A stretch of 46,366 nucleotides of DNA from an uncultured Clostridia bacterium (GTDB lineage: Bacteria; Bacillota; Peptococcia; Peptococcales; Peptococcaceae), in contig CALXUG010000021.1 in the NCBI GenBank assembly GCA_944391625.1, forward strand, positions 1 through 46,366. The letters run 5' to 3'. The notes under the pieces were generated by a model. It made no database searches, was not told the DNA's origin, and saw only the letters and a program-made list of their open reading frames with translations. The translations under genes were made by a program, and so were the position numbers. Each line of letters starts with the position of its first letter. Within the stretch, counting starts at the first letter, position 1. Positions 34,169 to 44,767 of this stretch are shown here, in pieces.

Positions 34169-35059
34169 TTATAACTTTTTAAAGAAATTGCCCTCTACCT
34201 CAACCTGCTCTTTTATCACCACAAATGCGCCTTCGTCAATACTGCGCACATGACGCAGCAGCTGGGTGACTTCATATTTGGATACCACCACGCAGATAAT
34301 TGTGGTAGGAGATTCGGTCAATGCACCCTTGCCTTGCCAATAAGTACAGCCCCGCGCCATCTGTTCCACGATAAACTGACTGATTTCCTCCATTTTATTT
34401 TTTGTATAAATATTCACTTCCACAGCAATATTCTGCGAGTGGGTTCTGTCAATCATAATGGATAAGATGACAGTATAGATAACAGAATAGATTACAACGG
34501 ATAAATCAAACAACACTGCGCACACTGCATACACCATAAAGTTGATGATCAACCCCATCTTTCCTACGCTGAAATTGCTCATTTTTTTGGTAAAGTACAC
34601 GCCCAAAATATCCTGCCCGCCGCCGGAGGCGCCATTTTTCAAAGTAATTCCCACGCCCCAGCCGGCAATAATCCCACCAATAAAACAAGCGGTCAATTGA
34701 TCCTCTATGATAGGCACTGCAGGACTTTTTATCACCGTTAAAAAAATAGTCTGGCAAATAACGCAGATAACCGTTTTAATAAAAAATCCCCGGCCCAAAG
34801 AATGAAAAGCCAAAATAAAAAGCGGCACATTGCAGAGAAAATAAATCAGACCGGCAATATCCACATCACCAAAATTCATCCCTGCGTATTGTACCAGCAC
34901 AGTCCGCACAATCTGTCCGATCCCTACAAAACCACCATTATACAACCCTATCGGCACAATAAAATAATTTACGCCAAAAGAAAACACCAGTGTACCAAAT
35001 ATGGCCATCAATAATTTTTTTGTTTCTTCAATTCGCTGTTCACGCCGCATTTCTAACAC
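34169..35059 (-). CDS. YitT family membrane protein, paralogue A
   Basis: The 296-aa product has five to six membrane helices ('LMAIFGTLVFSFGVNYFIVP', 'DIAGLIYFLCNVPLFILAFH', 'FFIKTVICVICQTIFLTVI', 'ACFIGGIIAGWGVGITLKNG') and a C-terminal cytoplasmic DUF2179 domain ('HSQNIAVEVNIYTKNKMEEI', 'LTESPTTIICVVVSKYEVTQ'). YitT proteins are widespread in Bacillota and of unknown transport role. The GTG at 35059 follows a GGGAGGGGGC ribosome-binding site and matches the start of the neighbour paralogue. It has its own terminator. Confidence 0.9.
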   Translation of the reverse strand: MLEMRREQRIEETKKLLMAIFGTLVFSFGVNYFIVPIGLYNGGFVGIGQIVRTVLVQYAGMNFGDVDIAGLIYFLCNVPLFILAFHSLGRGFFIKTVICVICQTIFLTVIKSPAVPIIEDQLTACFIGGIIAGWGVGITLKNGASGGGQDILGVYFTKKMSNFSVGKMGLIINFMVYAVCAVLFDLSVVIYSVIYTVILSIMIDRTHSQNIAVEVNIYTKNKMEEISQFIVEQMARGCTYWQGKGALTESPTTIICVVVSKYEVTQLLRHVRSIDEGAFVVIKEQVEVEGNFFKKL

Positions 35060-35183
35060 AAAGCATCTGCCCCCTCCCTAACTGCCTTGATAGTGCTATA
35101 TCTTCCTGTTCATTATACTACACGCTTCATAAAAGTAGTTATGATTTTATTTATTCCTGGTATAGCAATCTGTAAATGAAAGC

Positions 35184-35217
35184 AAAAAACAACAACGCAC
35201 TGCCGAAGCAATGCGCT
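35184..35217 (-). terminator. Terminator of yitT paralogue B
   Basis: On the minus strand CGCATTGC-TTCG-GCAGTGCG is a UUCG-capped stem followed by a T-rich run. A close copy ends the alcohol dehydrogenase gene. Confidence 0.8.
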
Positions 35218-35270
35218 GCAAATATGATGAAACAACTCCAGTATTGTTTCATTTTTATAATTCTCAAAGT

Positions 35271-36158
35271 TTATAATTTTTTAAAGAAATTCCCTTCCAC
35301 CGAAACTGCATCTTTTAACACGATAAATGCATCCTCATCAATTGCATTCACATAACGCAATAATTGTGTCACTTCGTATTTCGATACTACCACACAAATG
35401 ATGGAAGTTTTTGATTCTGTTAAAGCGCCTTTCGCATCCCAATAGGTGCAGCCACGTGCCATGCGTTCTACTACCACCTGTGTAATTTCTTCTGTTTTAT
35501 CTTTGGTATAGATATCTACTTCCATCGCAATATTCTGAGAATGTGTTCTATCCATCATAAAGGAAAGGATTAAGTAATAAATGATGGAGTAAATCATGAT
35601 GGACAAATCAAACAGCAACGCACAAGCGATATAAATACAAACATTCACCATAAGGCCCAAACGCCCTACGCTAAAATGTTTCAATTTTTTTGTAAAATAT
35701 ACGCCCAGCACATCGGTACCACCACAGCAAGCTCCATTCTTTAAGGTGATCCCAACACCCCAGCCGGCAATGCTGCCGCCAACAAAGCAAGCAGTCAGCG
35801 TATCTGTAATGACCGGTACTTCCGGACTTGGAATCAGCGTTAAAAAAATCGACTGACTGATAACGCAAATCACTGTTTTGATAAAAAAGCCCCGTCCCAG
35901 TGAATGAAACGCCAAAATAAATACAGGAATGTTAAACAGAAAGTACAGGATACCGGCAATATCCACAGAACCAGGTTCCAAACTGGTGTACCGGAACAAT
36001 ATGGTTTGTATTACCTGGCCAATGCCTACAAAGCCGCCATTATACAATCCCATTGGAACAACAAAGAAATTTAAACCAAACGAAAAAATTAACGTACCCA
36101 ACACCGCAAAAATAACTTTCTTTCCTTCCGTCATTCGTTGTTCTCGCGTCATTTCCAT
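35271..36158 (-). CDS. YitT family membrane protein, paralogue B
   Basis: The 295-aa product is highly similar to paralogue A over its whole length, for example 'IFSFGLNFFVVPMGLYNGGF', 'FHSLGRGFFIKTVICVISQS', 'WGVGITLKNGACCGGTDVLG' and the DUF2179 end 'VSVEGNFFKKL'. A differs by 'GASGGGQDILG' in place of 'GACCGGTDVLG', so B has two vicinal cysteines in a conserved glycine-rich loop. It starts at ATG 36158 with AGGAG. Each gene ends at its own terminator, so they are transcribed separately despite being a tandem duplication. Confidence 0.9.
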   Translation of the reverse strand: MEMTREQRMTEGKKVIFAVLGTLIFSFGLNFFVVPMGLYNGGFVGIGQVIQTILFRYTSLEPGSVDIAGILYFLFNIPVFILAFHSLGRGFFIKTVICVISQSIFLTLIPSPEVPVITDTLTACFVGGSIAGWGVGITLKNGACCGGTDVLGVYFTKKLKHFSVGRLGLMVNVCIYIACALLFDLSIMIYSIIYYLILSFMMDRTHSQNIAMEVDIYTKDKTEEITQVVVERMARGCTYWDAKGALTESKTSIICVVVSKYEVTQLLRYVNAIDEDAFIVLKDAVSVEGNFFKKL

Positions 36159-36267
36159 AAATCTTTGCTCCTCTTCTCGATAATTTTAACGATTGTTTCT
36201 AGTTTCTCCGATTATAATCTGTATTCTCTTGTTGTGTCCGCAGAGCATGCCAAGCAAGCAAAAGATA

Positions 36268-36301
36268 TGTAAAACAGCGCACTGCCGAAACAATGCGCTG
36301 C
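36268..36301 (-). terminator. Terminator of the alcohol dehydrogenase gene
   Basis: CAGCGCACTG (36275–36284) pairs with CAATGCGCTG (36291–36300) around CCGAAA, followed on the minus strand by TTTTAC. It is a near copy of the yitT B terminator. Confidence 0.75.
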
Positions 36302-36335
36302 GAAAAGTTTATAATTTAATTTTGATAATCAACGA

Positions 36336-37469
36336 TTATTTGCTAGCCAGTTCATGATACATGGTGTCTAACATTTCATCTGTAATGTAAACAGGCATGT
36401 TGCGCAGGTTTGGATGAACGCTGATGCGAACCAGATCAGCAATCTGTTCTTCTGTTAAGTTCAGATCTTTCAAACCGTTACGCAGACCCAGTCTTGCTTT
36501 CAGAGCATGGATTTCGTCAGCCATTTCGTTCATGTCTTTGAAACCTAATTTAGCTGCAAATTCGTTTACACGTGGGCCAGCTTCTGCATCGTTAGCAATG
36601 ATGTGAGCAAAATAGTCAATGGTCAGACCGCAAGCTTCACCATGTGGAATATGATGCAGGTTGGTCAGTGGGAAGGAACAAGCATGAGAACCGGTTGTCA
36701 AAGGAATGGTAAATGCCAGACCAGCCATTACGGATGCTTCAGACATTTTTTCTCTAGCTTCAACGTCCTGCGGATCTTTGTAAGCGCGTTCCAAATATTT
36801 GAATACTAAATCAGTAGCGTGTAATGCAACTGCATCACAGATTGGCTGATGATTTTTGCTCCAGAAACCTTCAATTGCGTGGCACAATACGTCGATACCG
36901 CAGCCAGCAGTTACCTGTGGTGGGCAGCTGTAGGTTAATTCTGGGTCAATAACTGCCAGTGTTGGGTAGAAGTTCATGGAATTGATTGGAGCTTTTTTAC
37001 CCAGTTCATGGTCAGTTACAACAGATACTTTTGTAACTTCGGAACCTGTACCGGATGTAGTTGGTACAGCAATCAGTGGCAGATGTTCTTTTGGCAGCTG
37101 TTTGCCTGTGCCATGATATTCTCTGATGGATTCATCGGTCATGCATACAGAAGCAGCAGCTTTTGCAGCGTCCATTGCGGAACCGCCGCCCAGTGCTACT
37201 ACGAAACCGTGTTTATTTTTTCTGATAACATCAGCGCAAGCATCAATTTCTTTTACATCTGGGTTAGGAGAAACATCACCAAAAGCAGCTGTTAAAGCAC
37301 CATTGCTGCTGTCAACGATTTTCTGAGCCAGACCATTGGTCAAGAAGAATTTGTCTGCTACCAGCAAACCATTTGCAATGCCCAGTTCCTGTGCGATTTC
37401 GTCAATTTTATTGATCAGGCCAGCGCCAAATCTGATTTCTACTGGCTGAATATAATTCCAAGATGCCAT
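36336..37469 (-). CDS. Iron-dependent (group III) alcohol dehydrogenase, putative sulfoacetaldehyde or semialdehyde reductase
   Basis: The 377-aa enzyme has the NAD(P)-binding 'ALGGGSAMDAAKAAA' (GGGSAMD at 94–100), 'AVPTTSGTGSEVTKVSVV' and the metal site: Asp193 and His197 in 'AGCGIDVLCHAIEGFWS', plus the histidines of 'TNLHHIPHGEACGL'. It begins 'SWNYIQPVEIRFGAG'. It lies 144 bases downstream of a class III aminotransferase and shares its leader pattern (TATTTTGAAAGG before the start). Its codons are strongly biased (GGT, GCT, GTT, CGT), as in very highly expressed genes. It likely reduces the aldehyde made by the aminotransferase: sulfoacetaldehyde, succinic or malonic semialdehyde are the candidates. 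Confidence 0.9.
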   Translation of the reverse strand: MASWNYIQPVEIRFGAGLINKIDEIAQELGIANGLLVADKFFLTNGLAQKIVDSSNGALTAAFGDVSPNPDVKEIDACADVIRKNKHGFVVALGGGSAMDAAKAAASVCMTDESIREYHGTGKQLPKEHLPLIAVPTTSGTGSEVTKVSVVTDHELGKKAPINSMNFYPTLAVIDPELTYSCPPQVTAGCGIDVLCHAIEGFWSKNHQPICDAVALHATDLVFKYLERAYKDPQDVEAREKMSEASVMAGLAFTIPLTTGSHACSFPLTNLHHIPHGEACGLTIDYFAHIIANDAEAGPRVNEFAAKLGFKDMNEMADEIHALKARLGLRNGLKDLNLTEEQIADLVRISVHPNLRNMPVYITDEMLDTMYHELASK

Positions 37470-37613
37470 AATTAGTATCCACCTTTCAAAATATCAAAAT
37501 AATAAATAATTTATATCCTAGTTACCCTAGTAAGACAGGCCATCTACTCTTTTGTTAAATAGACAGCCTGTCAAAAAGTTCATATTTGCAATGTTACAAA
37601 TACAATCATTTAA

Positions 37614-38996
37614 TTATTTTACAATAGCTACAGCTGTTGTATAGTCTGGGTTCTTTTCTACAGTTGCTAACTGTTCGTCGATCCAGGTCAGAACTTCATC
37701 AATTTTTGGCAGAACTGCATCCAGTTCTTCTTTGGTGATGGTCAGTGGAGGACAAATGGACATTGTGTTTTCACGACCATACAGATGAACGTTGTATTCG
37801 TTTTCCAGTTTAGCAATAGCCTGTGCTTTGATAGCATTTGGGCAACCATAGTAATCCAGTGGTTCACGAGTTGCTTTGTCTTTTACCAGTTCAAATGCTG
37901 TGAACAGACCAATGTGTCTAGCTTCGCCAACACAAGCATGTTTTTCAACCATTTCGTCTTCCCATTTAGCCAGGTAAGCGCCAACTTCATTTACATGGTC
38001 GCAAACATTGTGATCCAGATAGTAGTCAACTGCTGCATTACCAGCTGCGCAAGCCAGTGTATGACCACTGTAGGTCAGACCGCACTGCAGTACATGATCT
38101 TCAAAGAATTTGCTGATTTCTTTGCTCATTACTACGCCGCCCAGTGGGATGTAACCGCAGGTAACACCTTTAGCGAATGTGATGATATCTGGTACGATAT
38201 CAAAGTTCTGCCAGCAGAACATTTTACCGGTACGACCGAAACCAGCCATAACTTCGTCGCAGATCATCAGGATGCCGTATTTGTCGCACAGAGCGCGAAC
38301 GCCTTCCATGTATCCTTTTGGTGGAATCAGAACGCCGTTAGCACCTGTGATGGATTCCATCATGATAGCTGCTACATTGTCTGTACCTTCATAATGCAGC
38401 TGTTCTTCCAACAGATGCAGATAATATTTTGTAGCTTTTTCATCATCAGCTTTGTCCCAACCATCATGATAGGTGTATGGGTCGATGAATTTGATGAAAC
38501 CATTTGCACCGCCTACTTCAGCAGCGAAACGTCTCCAGTCACCGGAAGCATTGGAAGCACCCAGGGTAGCACCATGATAGCTTCTGTAACGGTTGAAGAT
38601 TTTTGTACGGCCTGTGAAGTTACGAGCGATTTTGATAGCATTTTCGTTAGCGTCTGCACCAGCGTTGGTGAACAGTACTCTCTGGAAATGATCAGCACCA
38701 GCGATATCTACGATTTTTTTAGCCAGTGTGGATTTTGCTTCTGTTGCATAGCATGGAGCTGCAAAACACAGTTTGTCAGCCTGAGCTTTAATAGCGTCTA
38801 CGATTTCTGGCAGGCTGTGACCTAAGTTTGCACATACCAGCAGGGAGGACATATCTGCGATTTCGTTTCCATCATAGTCATACAGATAAATACCTTTACC
38901 ACTTTCGATTGGTCTTGCTGCACCGCCAGATTTAGACCAAGACTGAGCGATGTACTGTGCATGCATCTGAGAGATTTCTTTTCCTGTTAATGCCAT
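37614..38996 (-). CDS. Class III PLP aminotransferase, putative taurine or omega-amino acid aminotransferase
   Basis: The 460-aa fold type I aminotransferase has 'FTNAGADANENAIKIAR', 'RYRSYHGATLGASNASGDWR', 'ILMICDEVMAGFGRTGK' with Asp247, and 'TFAKGVTCGYIPLGG' with the PLP-binding Lys276. The start at 38996 lies eight bases after AAAGGATGG; the earlier ATG lies inside that site. Codon use is as biased as in the adjacent dehydrogenase. Known pairs of this kind turn taurine into sulfoacetaldehyde then isethionate (Bifidobacterium, Bilophila), or GABA into 4-hydroxybutyrate. No CoA-transferase or dehydratase for the GABA route is nearby, so I favour taurine, weakly. Confidence 0.88.
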   Translation of the reverse strand: MALTGKEISQMHAQYIAQSWSKSGGAARPIESGKGIYLYDYDGNEIADMSSLLVCANLGHSLPEIVDAIKAQADKLCFAAPCYATEAKSTLAKKIVDIAGADHFQRVLFTNAGADANENAIKIARNFTGRTKIFNRYRSYHGATLGASNASGDWRRFAAEVGGANGFIKFIDPYTYHDGWDKADDEKATKYYLHLLEEQLHYEGTDNVAAIMMESITGANGVLIPPKGYMEGVRALCDKYGILMICDEVMAGFGRTGKMFCWQNFDIVPDIITFAKGVTCGYIPLGGVVMSKEISKFFEDHVLQCGLTYSGHTLACAAGNAAVDYYLDHNVCDHVNEVGAYLAKWEDEMVEKHACVGEARHIGLFTAFELVKDKATREPLDYYGCPNAIKAQAIAKLENEYNVHLYGRENTMSICPPLTITKEELDAVLPKIDEVLTWIDEQLATVEKNPDYTTAVAIVK

Positions 38997-39097
38997 TTGA
39001 ATTACCATCCTTTCAAAATATAAAAAATATTTTTTAATAAAGGAATTGAGACGCTTATTATCGAACTTATCCCGTTCCTTTAATGTAACCTATAAAC

Positions 39098-39125
39098 ATT
39101 TTATATCATAACGAAAAAAATTCAA
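39098..39125 (-). promoter_or_regulatory. Promoter of the aminotransferase gene
   Basis: TTGAAT (39125–39120) and TAAAAT (39103–39098) on the minus strand are 16 bases apart. The untranslated leader would be about 95 bases. It lies just past the regulator gene stop. Confidence 0.55.
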
Positions 39126-39212
39126 TATCTTAAAGCATAACTTTTTCTGTGCTAACGCACACAGGTATTTATGGATTATATAAATTATATTCATTTTATA
39201 CAAAATATTGCA

Positions 39213-40370
39213 TCACATAATCTTTTTCAACATAAACGCGATACTGTACAACAACCGTGTATCCAGCTCTGACAGGTCGCAGTTCAGCATTTCCTCAATT
39301 TTATTAATTTTATAATTAATCGTATTTCTGTGTACAAACATAGCCTCCGCAGTTTCTTTTACACTGCCGCTATGTTCTAAATAACACTGCAATACGTCGC
39401 AGTAATTGGTTTGGTTCAGCTTGTCATACTCTACCAGACGCTGGATGGTTTCCGCATAATACTCATTGATCACGTCCTGATTTTCGATATCCATCAGCAA
39501 TTTGTATACGCCCAGCTCCTGATAAGCCACCACATCTTTATCATTGTGCATATTTCTCTGCAGTTTCAGCACCTGACAGGCTTGTCTGTAGGATTTGCCA
39601 ATATTCTGTGCATTTAAGGTACAACGGCCAATCCCTACATAACACTGTTCTTTCTGGAAATTGCACCGTTTTAACATATCGCTGACGGTTTTTTTCACCA
39701 TCGGTTCACTGTATCCTGCAAACAGCAGTACAATGTTTCCGCCCAATTCAAACACAAATGTTTTTTTGCGGGAAAAAATCATATAATTTTCCATTGTCTT
39801 TACATATCGCTGCAGCTTATCATCGGCAATCTTTTCGCCGCCGTCTACAATATCAATCACAGTGACACAGTAAGACCAGTTGCGTAAAAAATTATTACGT
39901 TCCAGCTGCGGTACATACAAATCTTCCTGATTTGAGAAAAATATAGCGTTTTTTACTGCACTGGACAATTCCAGATTATATTTATCAGATTCGGTAATCA
40001 TATAGCAGATAGTACGCATAATTTCCGCCATATGCACCTGCCAGGGAACAATAAACAAGGGAAACCCTTCCTGGTTGCAATAAGCAATGACATCCTCCGG
40101 CACTTCTTTTACAAAAGGACCGATATTCACTACCATACCGCTGGCTTTATGTTCATTGTTGGCCTTTACCAAATCCAGCAGCGTTACATTTCCGTTCAAG
40201 CCAACGCCTGTGGTAAATGCAATTTCCTGCCCATCCAAAAAGGAAGAACTTTCATTACTTTCTACCATATGCAGCCAGCGCACCACATTGCCCATGCCCT
40301 GCTCACCGGCTACCAAAGTAATATCCTGATTTTTGACACCCTCATATAAATCTGACAGCAAAACCGCCAT
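39213..40370 (-). CDS. PucR family transcriptional regulator
   Basis: The 385-aa regulator has an N-terminal PucR purine-catabolism-type domain ('LSDLYEGVKNQDITLVAGEQ', 'RWLHMVE', 'AFTTGVGL'), a GGDEF-like central CdaR region and a C-terminal helix-turn-helix ('YLEHSGSVKETAEAMFVHRN', 'TINYKINKIEEML'). PucR/CdaR proteins activate catabolic genes for nitrogen compounds. It lies directly upstream of and co-directional with the aminotransferase–dehydrogenase pair, so it is their likely activator. I start at ATG 40370 after GGGTGA; a start five codons upstream is possible. Confidence 0.9.
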   Translation of the reverse strand: MAVLLSDLYEGVKNQDITLVAGEQGMGNVVRWLHMVESNESSSFLDGQEIAFTTGVGLNGNVTLLDLVKANNEHKASGMVVNIGPFVKEVPEDVIAYCNQEGFPLFIVPWQVHMAEIMRTICYMITESDKYNLELSSAVKNAIFFSNQEDLYVPQLERNNFLRNWSYCVTVIDIVDGGEKIADDKLQRYVKTMENYMIFSRKKTFVFELGGNIVLLFAGYSEPMVKKTVSDMLKRCNFQKEQCYVGIGRCTLNAQNIGKSYRQACQVLKLQRNMHNDKDVVAYQELGVYKLLMDIENQDVINEYYAETIQRLVEYDKLNQTNYCDVLQCYLEHSGSVKETAEAMFVHRNTINYKINKIEEMLNCDLSELDTRLLYSIAFMLKKIM

Positions 40371-40557
40371 GTAAATATCACCCAACCCTTCAAGTCGTTA
40401 CTATGTATGTGTTATCTTTATTGTACCTATTTATCGAATCAGTTGCAAGATTTTTTGTGCATATCACACAACAAATTATCTTATTTATCTGGAAATTCAG
40501 TATTTCAGCACAAATTCACACATTTTCTCTGGGAAAACAGATTTTCATTGTTTGGTC

Positions 40558-40700
40558 GGCTGTCCTATCTTTGCCTATCCTTCAGCGCGTCGGACACCAA
40601 CTTGTTTGTTTCTTTCGCTTTGGACTGTGTCCAGCTCAATGAAAACAAACTGCGTTGCTGACCGCCGCAATTCAGAATTTTGGCAAAGAATAGGCCAGCC
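40558..40700 (-). repeat. Hairpin-string repeat element, divergent copy E
   Basis: It has the same plan as copies A–D, but different ends: GGCTGTCCTATCTTTGCC (40558–40575) and GGCAAAGAATAGGCCAGCC (40682–40700), which pair. The inner hairpin TGGAC-TGT-GTCCA (40621–40633) reads on the minus strand with the flank 'AGTCCAAAGCGA', as in copy A. Length is 143 bp. Confidence 0.6.
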
Positions 40701-40745
40701 TTATGTGCGCAAACCAGGGATATATTTTGTTGCCGTTGTCGACAT

Positions 40746-40857
40746 TGAAGCAGACAGGTGTGCAGTCTGTCTTGCTGAACTGGACGCAGTCCAAAGTGAA
40801 GCAGACCGACAAGCAGATGTCTGTGCCCGACGCCTTTCTGGTCGGGTAGGAGGGCAG
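40746..40857 (+). repeat. Chained stem-loops next to copy E (copy F)
   Basis: Three hairpins lie in a row: AGACAG/CTGTCT (40752–40772), TGGAC-GCA-GTCCA (40781–40793, flank AAAGTGA) and CCCGAC/GTCGGG (40826–40846). It is the same kind of module string without recognisable termini. I see no gene in 40371–40946. Confidence 0.5.
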
Positions 40858-40897
40858 GCAACAAACAATCTCCCGACAAAGAAGCATCACAAACAAT

Positions 40898-40930
40898 AAA
40901 AAACACAGCCCTCTAAAAAGAGAACTGTGT
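40898..40930 (-). terminator. Terminator of the MFS transporter gene
   Basis: On the minus strand ACACAGTTCTCT pairs with AGAGGGCTGTGT around TTTT, followed by TTTTTTATTG. It lies directly after the stop at 40947. Confidence 0.8.
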
Positions 40931-40946
40931 CCATATTTATTTCATA

Positions 40947-42203
40947 TCAAGCTTCTAAGCGCAATTTATATTTTTTCCAAATCTGATATCCGGTAAAACT
41001 GGAAAAAATACCGATACCGCCGCATACGCACCAGAAAATCATGGTCATATCCCAGCCAAAAGCTTCCGAAAAAGCGCCTGTGGCAAACATGGATGTAGCA
41101 ATACCCAGATTGACAAAAGCATTCAAAATGCCGGATACAGAAGAACTGCGGCCCTGTTTAGCAAAATATCCCGGCACCACACCTACATATACCGTATTGA
41201 CAGCCATCATAATGGTTGTAGCAATGGAGAAGAATACAAACATGGGAATCAACCCGATAAACGATGTCACATACAAAATCACCAACGAAATGGTTCCTGC
41301 AATAAACAGGAAGAAGGAACAGCGCACTTCGTCGCCGATGACTTTTCTGGCCACTGCAGCAATACTGATCCCAACAATATTAAACATCGGAATCAGCGCT
41401 GTACTGACAATGGCTAATGTAGTGCCAATATCAAACCGTTCCCCCATCAAATTGGGCATCCACGCCGTAATACCTTCTTTTAACATACCCTGCATCATCA
41501 ATACCAGACACATAAACACCATACCGGACGAAAGCACCAGCTCTCCCAAAGGCATTTTTTTGGCGGTCTTATCCGCATCGGCAGTCTGCACTGTGTTATC
41601 GGTATCCACCCGTGTCAATTTAGGAAGCAGCATTCCGGTAGAAATCCACCAGCCCGCCGCAGTCAGCATCACTACCACAAAGGAGCCGAAGAATACCATT
41701 TTCCAGTTTCCTGTCATTTCCAGAATCAACGCAGTAAAGCCATAGGTTGCCAATGTTCCTACCGGCACTGTGCTATTAATATACACACCCAGCGTACCCC
41801 GCACCTGGGCAGTAAAATACTGCGCAAACATACGCACAATAGGCGACCACAATAATGATTGCATAAAACCATTCACACACCAGGCAATAATCATAAAATT
41901 AAGATTCGGCGCCACACACATACATAAGTTACTAATACTGGAACCAACCAGCCCTACCATAATCATTTTTCGCGGTGACACATAGTCGCCCAAAAATCCG
42001 CTGAAAATTTGTCCCAGCCCATAGGTAATAAACAGACCGGTTCCCACCAGCCCCACCATGCCCTTAGAATATCCTTCTGCAACAATAATTGCCGCCATAC
42101 AGGCAGAATAATTCATTCGGCCAAAATAGGCAAAAAAATAGCTCAGCCAGCAAATACTGAACAGCGCAATATCCTTTTTTTCAATTTTTTCTTCCGCCGC
42201 CAT
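40947..42203 (-). CDS. MFS transporter, GlpT/OPA-like
   Basis: The 418-aa protein has twelve predicted helices. 'ICWLSYFFAYFGRMNYSACM' (helix 1 with the FGRMNYS arginine), 'GLFITYGLGQIFSGFLGDYV' followed by SPRKM, and 'GYFAKQGRSSSVSGILNAFV' follow the organophosphate:phosphate antiporter branch of the MFS. The substrate is probably an organic anion; a sulfonate or the amine's product acid would fit the neighbouring aminotransferase–dehydrogenase–PucR genes. The ATG at 42203 has GGAGG at seven bases. It is upstream of PucR on the same strand but ends at its own terminator. Confidence 0.85.
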   Translation of the reverse strand: MAAEEKIEKKDIALFSICWLSYFFAYFGRMNYSACMAAIIVAEGYSKGMVGLVGTGLFITYGLGQIFSGFLGDYVSPRKMIMVGLVGSSISNLCMCVAPNLNFMIIAWCVNGFMQSLLWSPIVRMFAQYFTAQVRGTLGVYINSTVPVGTLATYGFTALILEMTGNWKMVFFGSFVVVMLTAAGWWISTGMLLPKLTRVDTDNTVQTADADKTAKKMPLGELVLSSGMVFMCLVLMMQGMLKEGITAWMPNLMGERFDIGTTLAIVSTALIPMFNIVGISIAAVARKVIGDEVRCSFFLFIAGTISLVILYVTSFIGLIPMFVFFSIATTIMMAVNTVYVGVVPGYFAKQGRSSSVSGILNAFVNLGIATSMFATGAFSEAFGWDMTMIFWCVCGGIGIFSSFTGYQIWKKYKLRLEA

Positions 42204-42339
42204 AGTTAAGCCTCCATCTCCTTTTTCGTTTTCATTTTCGTTCTATTGGAAAAACTTCCCCCGCTTTGACCATTCTACAACACCCTTTATTCTTTGTAAA
42301 TTCAAAATATTAAAAAAGTTTATTCAACAGCAAAATATT

Positions 42340-42368
42340 TTTTCAAAAAATACAAAATATGGTATACT
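42340..42368 (+). promoter_or_regulatory. Promoter of the DUF1624 gene
   Basis: TTTTCA (42340–42345) and TATACT (42363–42368) are 17 bases apart, with TGG before the -10 element. The leader is about 50 bases. Confidence 0.5.
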
Positions 42369-42423
42369 ACCTGATATGAACGACAACATATAGCAAAACT
42401 GCTTTTCTGGAGGTTACAACTTT

Positions 42424-43173
42424 ATGCATACACCAAAATCACGGCTGCATGTGCTGGATTTGTTGCGCGGTATCTTGTTTCTCAACATGGCCGCTTATCA
42501 CTTTTTATATGACTGGGTGTTCCTGTTTGGACAATCCTGCCCTTTTATGAACACACAGGCCGCCTTTCTGTGGCAGCAGATAATCTGCAGCGGCTTTATT
42601 CTTCTGGCCGGCTGCTGCTGTACCTTGAGCCGAAATCCTGCCAAACATGGTGTTCAAATTTTGGGCTGCGGTCTTATCATCACCCTTGTAACTGTATTTA
42701 TCACACCGCAGGAGCAAATTTTATTCGGCATCCTGCATTTTACCGGGTTGGCCTATCTCATCACAGCCTGTCTGCGGCCAGCAGCTTCCAAATTACCAAC
42801 TCTGCCCGCCTGCACCGTTGCGTTTCTGCTATTTGCGTTTACCAAAGGAATCTATTACGGCTATCTCGGCTTTTTGCACACACCGCTCTGGTATTTACCC
42901 GACTGGTTGTATCAGTTCCCCATGCTGTTTGTTCTGGGGCTGCCGACACCGGACTTTTATTCCGGCGATTATTTTCCTTTGATTCCCTGGTTTTTTCTGT
43001 TCCTTGCGGGCTATTTCGGCGGACCTGCTGTACTGAAATCAAAGCCCTTTGCCAAGATAAAACAATGGTATCTTCCACCGTTTAACTGGATTGGACGCCG
43101 CACCTTATTCTTATATATGCTGCATCAGCCCGTTATCTTCGGAGCCTTGACCTTGTACTTTTCCATATTCTGA
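42424..43173 (+). CDS. Heparan-alpha-glucosaminide N-acetyltransferase-like membrane protein (DUF1624)
   Basis: The 249-aa protein has about seven membrane helices. The start 'RLHVLDLLRGILFLNMAAYH' is the acyltransferase-type opening, with the Asp and Arg of L-D-L-L-R-G and a His in helix 1. Then come 'SGFILLAGCCCTLSR', 'RNPAKHGVQILGCGLIITLV', 'FGILHFTGLAYLI' with the family's G-I-L-H, and 'FNWIGRRTLFLYMLHQPVIF'. It would move acyl groups across the membrane onto an unknown sugar or lipid. The ATG at 42424 follows GGAGG. It is a single plus-strand gene. Confidence 0.88.
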   Translation: MHTPKSRLHVLDLLRGILFLNMAAYHFLYDWVFLFGQSCPFMNTQAAFLWQQIICSGFILLAGCCCTLSRNPAKHGVQILGCGLIITLVTVFITPQEQILFGILHFTGLAYLITACLRPAASKLPTLPACTVAFLLFAFTKGIYYGYLGFLHTPLWYLPDWLYQFPMLFVLGLPTPDFYSGDYFPLIPWFFLFLAGYFGGPAVLKSKPFAKIKQWYLPPFNWIGRRTLFLYMLHQPVIFGALTLYFSIF

Positions 43174-43318
43174 ATTACTTCAACAACTTTGTAGCTTCGA
43201 CATTATTTTTATAAATTACCCCGGTATAAATTCAAATAATAGTATATATATGCATCAGAGTGCTATAATTTTTACAAATACATTTATGTAATACTTTTTG
43301 AAAGGGGTAAACAGTTTT

Positions 43319-44767
43319 ATGCAAGTCAAACAAGAACTTAACCAGTGGTTCAGCAATGCCAAGGGAGATGTATTGGCTGGTTTGGTATCGTCCTTTGCCG
43401 TCATTCCGGAAGTTGTCGGCTTTTGTATCGTCGCCGGCATCAGCCCCATGATGGGCTTATACGCTTCTTTCTGGCTGACTGTGCTAATGGCCTTTATCGG
43501 CGGCCGCCCTGCCATGATTTCAGCCGCAGCTGGCTCTATGGCCCTGGTCATTGTCAGCTTGGTGCGGGATTACGGCCCGGAATATCTGATGGCCGCCACA
43601 ATTTTAACCGGTATTCTGATGTTCCTTTTAGGTGTGTTTAAAGTAGGGAATCTCATCAAATTAATTCCAAACAGCGTACAAATTGGTTTTGTAGATGCGC
43701 TGGCCATTTTGATTTTTACTTCTCAATTAGGCAATTTTGCCGGAGAAGGATGGCAGATGTATGCCTTAGTTGCTCTGGGAATTGCTATTATTTATCTGTT
43801 TCCGCATCTGACTCGCGCCATTCCTTCTACTTTGGTTGCGGTTGTGGTTGTCACCGCCATTGCTATTGCTTTTCAGGTTCCGGTGCGCACCATCGGCGAT
43901 ATGGGCAACATTACCGCAGCCCTGCCGCCATTCCACATTCCGGCAGTCCCGTTCAATCTGGAAACGCTGCAGATTATTCTGCCCTATTCCATTTCTTTGG
44001 CGCTGGTTGGATTGGTGGAAACGCTGCTGACCTCCAAAGTAATTGACGAAATGACCGACACCGAAGGGGACCGCAACCGAGAATGCCGCGGTCTTGGCAT
44101 TGCCAATATGGTATCCGGCTTTTTCAGCGGCACCTGCGGCTGCGCTATGATCGGACAGGCCATTGTCAATGTCAATTCCGGCGGACGGGGCCGTTTGTCC
44201 AACTTTGTATCCGGCGCATTTTTGATGGTCTTAATTTTCATTTTAAACGATTTAATGGTGCAGATTCCTCTGGCAGCCCTGGTGGCAGTTATGATTACCG
44301 TTTCCATCTCTACCTTTGACTGGGATTCGCTGCGGCGCCTGACCCGTATGCCGCGCACCGATGCTCTGGTCATTGTATTGGTAGTTGCCATTGTGGTAGC
44401 AACCAATAATCTGGCCTACGGTGTTGTAGTCGGTCTGGTACTGACCGCCATTTTCTTTGCCATGCAGATGTCTAAAATCAAAGTCAACAGCCACGAAGAA
44501 AACGGCACTGTCACCTATCAAATTTATGGGCAGATTTTCTTTGCCTCTACCGAATCCCTAATGAACGCATTGAACTTTCACGATAACGCCCATACTGTCA
44601 TTCTGGACTTTTCTCAGGCGCATCTTTGGGACGAATCGGCAGCTACCAGCCTGAACAAAATCGTAAAAAAACTGGAAGCCAATCAAAAACAAGTCACCGT
44701 TTACGGACTGGACGAAAAAAGCAATGCGCTGATGACAACCCTTTACGGCACCATCGTATCACCATAA
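43319..44767 (+). CDS. SulP family inorganic anion transporter
   Basis: The 482-aa protein has an SLC26/SulP transmembrane core ('GDVLAGLVSSFAVIPEVVGF', 'AGISPMMGLYASFWLTVLMA', 'AAAGSMALVIVSLVRDYG', 'ECRGLGIANMVSGFFSGTCG') and a C-terminal STAS domain ('NGTVTYQIYGQIFFASTESL', 'VILDFSQAHLWDESAATSLN'). The substrate may be sulfate, bicarbonate or another anion. If the nearby amine pathway handles sulfonates, sulfate or sulfite movement would fit, but there is no direct proof. I start at ATG 43319, preceded by AAAGGGG; an upstream TTG in frame is less likely. Confidence 0.93.
   Translation: MQVKQELNQWFSNAKGDVLAGLVSSFAVIPEVVGFCIVAGISPMMGLYASFWLTVLMAFIGGRPAMISAAAGSMALVIVSLVRDYGPEYLMAATILTGILMFLLGVFKVGNLIKLIPNSVQIGFVDALAILIFTSQLGNFAGEGWQMYALVALGIAIIYLFPHLTRAIPSTLVAVVVVTAIAIAFQVPVRTIGDMGNITAALPPFHIPAVPFNLETLQIILPYSISLALVGLVETLLTSKVIDEMTDTEGDRNRECRGLGIANMVSGFFSGTCGCAMIGQAIVNVNSGGRGRLSNFVSGAFLMVLIFILNDLMVQIPLAALVAVMITVSISTFDWDSLRRLTRMPRTDALVIVLVVAIVVATNNLAYGVVVGLVLTAIFFAMQMSKIKVNSHEENGTVTYQIYGQIFFASTESLMNALNFHDNAHTVILDFSQAHLWDESAATSLNKIVKKLEANQKQVTVYGLDEKSNALMTTLYGTIVSP

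Follow-up and report, generated by a model that had tools for sequence, protein, structure and literature searches.

A toa-tauF gene pair of the Bifidobacterium type as the probable entry to taurine respiration in an uncultured gut Peptococcaceae genus

Taurine is a bile-derived amino acid, and its conversion to sulfide in the gut has been associated above all with Bilophila and other Desulfovibrionaceae. In Bilophila wadsworthia taurine is respired through Tpa, SarD, IslAB and Dsr (PMC6453916, PMC8667426; the former names SarD 'TauF'). Taurinivorans muris respires taurine via Tpa and Xsc (PMC10507020), and the same route has been predicted for Desulfotomaculum ruminis (PMC3569383), a Gram-positive organism once placed in the Peptococcaceae. 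For BkToa and BkTauF of Bifidobacterium kashiwanohense a role in nitrogen assimilation was proposed, with taurine imported by TauABC and isethionate excreted as waste (PMC6616044). Here we analyse a gene pair corresponding to these last two enzymes, toa and tauF, which lies on a stretch of 46,366 nucleotides (contig CALXUG010000021.1 of assembly GCA_944391625.1, hereafter the window). The draft genome holding the window (G000) comprises 2.97 Mb in 74 contigs and is 96.2% complete and 0.72% contaminated. Its closest relatives are gut metagenome-assembled genomes (MAGs) labelled Peptococcaceae, UBA7185 among them, and the record titles place the MAGs of this genus in the hindgut of cattle, buffalo and goat. 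As judged from sequence, toa and tauF quite probably encode the first two steps of a dissimilatory taurine respiration of the type Toa-TauF-IslA-Dsr.

A first-pass annotation of the window had described four adjacent genes, encoding an iron-dependent alcohol dehydrogenase (Fe-ADH), a class III aminotransferase, a PucR regulator and an MFS/OPA-like carrier. Their positions were confirmed, and their families were assigned with NCBIfam and Pfam models. The aminotransferase gene, toa, occupies positions 37614..38996 of the minus strand and encodes 460 amino acids from its likely start. The annotated open reading frame reaches 39008, but the start codon is probably the ATG at 38996 (MALTGKE...): this is where relatives begin, and the earlier, first ATG shares bases with the ribosome-binding site. 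The protein aligned over its full length with BkToa (chain 6JIX) at 676 bits, and the second-best solved chain reached 240 bits. Phylogenetic placement, which the first-pass annotation had proposed as a check, put it within a clade of 13 sequences that includes BkToa (support 99/99). The wider Toa clade (18 sequences, 99/96) contains the sequences having TauF-type partner dehydrogenases. Toa is a predicted taurine:2-oxoglutarate aminotransferase of the BkToa type, this being its nearest solved relative by a wide margin.

The dehydrogenase gene, tauF (36336..37469, minus strand), encodes a 377-amino-acid member of the Fe-ADH family that gave 560 bits with chains 6JKO and 6JKP and 179 bits with the second-best solved chain. 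Both of the former represent the sulfoacetaldehyde reductase BkTauF, even if the PDB labels 6JKO 'methanol dehydrogenase' (PMC6616044). The metal-ligand and substrate residues D192, F252, T257, H261, F265 and H275, tested or assigned in the same work, are retained. Position 196 carries H in place of Q, a change that occurs in other homologues of BkTauF (PMC6616044). The enzyme is predicted to be a sulfoacetaldehyde reductase, TauF, of the BkTauF type; BkTauF itself favours NADH (PMC6616044). Identity with the SarD of Bilophila was rejected, the NCBIfam SarD model giving 186 bits against a cut-off of 700; BkTauF and BwSarD share 28% identity (PMC6616044).

The neighbourhoods of Toa-like genes were compared at 80 loci from public genomes, where these genes form two groups according to the residues of the partner dehydrogenase. 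Partners in group 1 have F252, T257 and F or Y265, like BkTauF, and those in group 2, a separate clade, have mostly I252, V257 and R265. Group 2 is the larger clade (L031, L032, L036, L038-L054 and most of L056-L100). Its Toa-like proteins show 52-58% to that of the window and are encoded next to PucR regulators and a different Fe-ADH; R265 of that enzyme points to a carboxylate, for instance a semialdehyde, as its substrate. Locus L059, from Candidatus Anaerostipes avistercoris, holds Toa-type clusters of both clades about 7 kb apart. Outside the genus, TauABC is present in 12 of the 14 TauF-type clusters, and 8 of the 14 have a TSUP carrier, a possible isethionate exporter. In two sister genera (genomes G008 and G010, loci L182 and L183) the Toa homologue is clustered with Xsc (774 and 772 bits, cut-off 676); the product of the Toa lineage is therefore tied to sulfoacetaldehyde, and Toa-Xsc constitutes a second taurine route within the same family. 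Conversion of taurine into isethionate, the reading that the first-pass annotation had favoured, is thus backed by the nearest solved structures, the substrate residues, the phylogeny and the TauABC or Xsc neighbours in relatives, and is the most likely function of the toa-tauF pair.

No isethionate lyase gene lies within the window, as had already been remarked. The genome search for islA and islB suggested at that stage located an IslA-type glycyl radical enzyme (GRE) and an activase outside it, on contig C33 of G000 (C33:28320-30824, equal to L112:6321-8825, on the minus strand of the latter). Five PFL-like GREs are encoded in this genome, one being CutC and four matching the sulfonate-lyase model. 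The C33 GRE gave 1202 bits with DvIslA, 1180 with BwIslA and 1144 with BwHpsG (chains 5YMR, 7KQ3 and 6LON; we take 5YMR to be DvIslA and 6LON to be HpsG). Of the catalytic and substrate residues tested in PMC8473560 it keeps all but I192 (R189, Q193, W374, C468, E470, R678, V680, F682 and G805), and HpsG has I at the position of F682. The gene is adjoined by that of the activase and by that of an Fe-ADH nearest to the alcohol dehydrogenase domain of AdhE, which fits acetaldehyde as the product. This enzyme is a candidate isethionate sulfite-lyase of the IslA type, with IslB as its activase.

The three further GREs of the HpsG/IslA superfamily in G000 (L113 on C11 and L121 on C3) have changed pocket residues (N193, F374 and I or V682). 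TSUP- and DASS-like carriers and LysR regulators are encoded close to them, and their substrates may be other sulfonates. The CutC choline trimethylamine-lyase (L176 on C6) is encoded together with an activase and an acetaldehyde dehydrogenase of its own, with no adjoining shell genes.

Genes for sulfite reduction were found on two contigs. C55 carries dsrA, dsrB and dsrC and C28 carries dsrM, dsrK, dsrO and dsrP, each above its curated cut-off, and a 143-amino-acid open reading frame occupies the dsrJ position. ATP sulfurylase had no match in G000 (96% complete), and the organism therefore looks like a sulfite rather than a sulfate respirer. A Tpa-Xsc or Toa-Xsc route was rejected for G000, in which the best Xsc match (188 bits) fell below the cut-off of 676. 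An operon on C14 encodes shell proteins together with an acetaldehyde dehydrogenase of the acylating type (691 bits against a cut-off of 620), a transacylase of the PduL type and proteins resembling PduT and RnfC/PduS, a content similar to that of the Bilophila IslAB compartment (PMC8667426). Elsewhere in their genomes, G008 and G010 encode an IslA-type GRE with IslB, bordered by genes for a TRAP transporter and an amidohydrolase. At the two ends of the C14 region, relatives of these bordering proteins (43-57% identity) are encoded, which links the C14 operon to isethionate; the C14 microcompartment presumably serves IslA.

Codon bias was expressed as the codon adaptation index (CAI), computed with ribosomal-protein codon weights. 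The reference consisted of 291 genes (median 0.520) in 20 stretches of 20 kb at contig starts, picked irrespective of content, so that the statistics refer to these stretches plus the fetched loci instead of the whole genome. TauF reached 0.819, a value attained by none of the 291 unselected genes, and Toa 0.806, attained by one; PucR (0.587) and the MFS carrier (0.515) were ordinary. This confirms the extreme bias of the pair, absent from its neighbours, that had first drawn attention to the locus. Values of the same order were obtained for DsrB (0.830), DsrC (0.823), the C33 IslA (0.822) and DsrA (0.790), with one of the 291 at most attaining each value. Two glutamate dehydrogenase (GDH) copies are present, that on C16 with 0.802 and the other with 0.473. 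The C14 acetaldehyde dehydrogenase had 0.782 and the adjoining shell protein 0.785. Values were lower for the remaining sulfonate-type GREs, three in number (0.68-0.72), and in the CutC cluster (0.51-0.67). The strongest bias is found in the Toa, TauF, IslA and Dsr genes, and thus successive steps from taurine to sulfide share it.

In the proposed pathway, Toa would transfer the amino group of taurine to 2-oxoglutarate, yielding sulfoacetaldehyde and glutamate, and GDH would return glutamate to 2-oxoglutarate with release of ammonium and reduced nicotinamide. TauF would reduce sulfoacetaldehyde to isethionate, which the IslB-activated IslA-type GRE would split into sulfite and acetaldehyde. 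Acetaldehyde would be converted into acetyl-CoA and acetyl phosphate by the acylating acetaldehyde dehydrogenase and the PduL-type transacylase encoded with the shell proteins, and sulfite would be reduced to sulfide by DsrAB, DsrC and DsrMKJOP. Apart from G000, Toa was found in the genus genomes G001, G003, G004, G005 and G006, the C33-type GRE in G001, G004, G005 and G006, and DsrA in G001, G002, G004, G005 and G006; all three occur together in five genomes (G000, G001, G004, G005 and G006). It seems fairly likely that this uncultured gut Peptococcaceae genus respires taurine by the Toa-TauF-IslA-Dsr route, with recycling by GDH and a separate acetaldehyde microcompartment, and that a Bifidobacterium-type module is thus respiratory in Gram-positive sulfide producers. 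What the sequence shows is which genes are present, their families and key residues, their synteny, their codon bias and their co-occurrence; from it we infer the activities, substrates and flux in this organism, together with the uptake carrier, the PucR ligand and the service of the microcompartment to IslA.

Several observations weigh against this scheme. On the chromosome, toa-tauF is unlinked to the genes for islA, dsr, gdh and the microcompartment, and G002, G003 and G007, which are 76-82% complete, each lack at least one of the three markers. The model matched by GDH is NADP-specific, whereas BkTauF prefers NADH, and two nicotinamide pools may hence need linking. The C14 microcompartment could serve the choline lyase CutC instead, against which count the separate acetaldehyde dehydrogenase and the modest codon bias of the CutC cluster. 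In the C33 GRE, all genus members have N at residue 192 (BwIslA numbering), a position occupied by I in IslA and by L in HpsG. The GRE tree, moreover, does not separate IslA from HpsG in this family, as the Peptococcaceae GREs, an HpsG-like copy included, make up a group of their own beside Desulfobacterota references; for this reason the IslA assignment rests on residues, context and codon bias.

The unlinked arrangement of the steps would suit nitrogen assimilation, the role published for the closest characterised enzymes (PMC6616044), in which toa-tauF only takes the nitrogen of taurine, isethionate is excreted, and IslA and Dsr serve other sulfonates. This is unlikely, however, given that the codon bias of the pair exceeds that of ribosomal proteins and equals that of IslA and DsrABC, a strength beyond what a side path for nitrogen would require. 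The TSUP carrier of the clusters outside the genus is not found in this one, and Toa co-occurs with IslA and DsrA in the genus. Of the earlier suggestion that taurine is a nitrogen source or an electron sink, the use of taurine was upheld and its purpose narrowed: with an IslA-type lyase, DsrABC, DsrMKJOP and a GDH of like codon bias in the genome, isethionate is more likely an intermediate of respiration than a waste product.

It is more doubtful still that the C33 GRE is a 2,3-dihydroxypropane-1-sulfonate (DHPS) sulfite-lyase of the HpsG type, in which case taurine would yield isethionate and the respired sulfite would come from DHPS or other sulfonates. The protein exceeds the cut-off of the NCBIfam HpsG model (1436 against 1000 bits), its activase stands at 427 against 430 for HpsH, and the GRE tree is compatible with this assignment. 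The name of that model is, however, weak evidence because no competing IslA model of NCBIfam was among the matches. Both solved IslA chains outscored HpsG, F682 is kept, L192 and I682 are seen in a further, HpsG-like copy that G005 has besides, and the neighbouring AdhE-like Fe-ADH fits acetaldehyde, all of which argues for IslA. Very improbable, finally, is the pathway for GABA, beta-alanine or a polyamine-derived aldehyde retained as an alternative in the first-pass annotation, in which the adjacent pot transporter would supply a transaminase and a hydroxy-acid dehydrogenase. Enzymes of these kinds do occur in the two protein families and there are pot-like transport genes in the vicinity, but the NCBIfam models for GABA transaminase (218 bits on Toa, cut-off 507) and 4-hydroxybutyrate dehydrogenase (220 bits on TauF, cut-off 500) were far from their cut-offs, Toa belongs to the BkToa clade, F252, T257 and F265 are the TauF residues whereas the group with mostly V257 and R265 is another clade, and the related clusters carry TauABC or Xsc, their PotA-like matches being the taurine ATPase TauB, so that the supposed polyamine link through the pot genes was discarded.

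Compared with the B. kashiwanohense system (6JIX, 6JKO, 6JKP), the locus has the same two enzymes, encoded side by side in the same transcript order and with the same substrate residues, and a PucR-type regulator beside related clusters is a further likeness. It differs in having an MFS carrier, in the absence of TauABC and TSUP from the cluster, and in the presence of IslA and Dsr in the genome. The scheme shares with B. wadsworthia the intermediates sulfoacetaldehyde, isethionate and sulfite, an IslA-type GRE, an acetaldehyde dehydrogenase with microcompartment genes, and Dsr; here, however, Toa and GDH replace Tpa and alanine dehydrogenase, TauF replaces SarD, and IslA is encoded outside the microcompartment operon. 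In Tpa-Xsc systems taurine likewise feeds sulfite to Dsr, but Xsc cleaves sulfoacetaldehyde directly. MAGs of Desulfovibrio and Bilophila that have toa but no tpa are already on record, and Toa was suggested there as an alternative first step of taurine reduction (PMC9016944); those MAGs are Desulfobacterota, and the passages searched mention neither Peptococcaceae nor a reductase of the BkTauF type. A search of mostly open-access journal papers found no report of Toa, TauF, IslA and Dsr together in one organism, any Gram-positive included, or of taurine use by this genus. Each enzyme was already known, and it is the combination and the host that are new. If the scheme is correct, a genus of the ruminant hindgut is a specialised taurine respirer from another phylum, and surveys targeting tpa, sarD or xsc would overlook it. 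The authors of the TauF work had raised the question whether isethionate from TauF enters sulfite-reducing metabolism; in the present case a single cell could probably do both.

Upstream of toa, a PucR-family regulator with PucR, GGDEF_2 and HTH_30 domains is encoded at 39213..40385 (minus strand). Where clusters of the clade outside the genus contain a relative (35-48%), it mostly adjoins toa (e.g. in L025-L030 and L059), and PucR likely regulates the toa-tauF cluster. The MFS gene (40947..42203, minus strand) encodes an OPA-like carrier with MFS_1 and weak PgtP/UhpC-type matches. It is kept next to PucR-toa-tauF in the relatives L021, L024 and L073 (85-87%); the TauF-type clusters of other genera gave no match for it and mostly carry TauABC instead. 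Neither a TauABC importer nor a TSUP exporter gene is present in the window, and the TauABC binding-protein model gave 34 and 28 bits in G000 against a cut-off of 304; the MFS protein is a candidate carrier of taurine or isethionate. The SulP gene first described some 1.1 kb beyond the MFS gene is indeed there, but the sulfur theme read into it did not hold, since its CAI is ordinary (0.507) and it had no match in the 16-kb relative L021.

The leader motif said to be shared by toa and tauF was recovered only as an extended Shine-Dalgarno box, for which the window has three matches (at most two mismatches) where chance would give 0.25. The region separating toa from tauF contains a stronger leader feature, a hairpin (37534..37572, minus strand) with a 16-bp stem and a 7-nt loop. 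Its RNA fold has -23.5 kcal/mol (z -5.65), and none of 200 shuffles was equally good. The core is invariant in five aligned genus members, the hairpin is present in every member with the intergenic region available, and among the fetched loci it was found in those of this genus only. An Rfam scan of positions 35000-43500, which include the hairpin, gave no match; transcript processing, stability or attenuation are candidate roles. Downstream of tauF, at 34169-36158 on the minus strand, two neighbouring and similar genes for YitT-family membrane proteins look like a tandem duplication.

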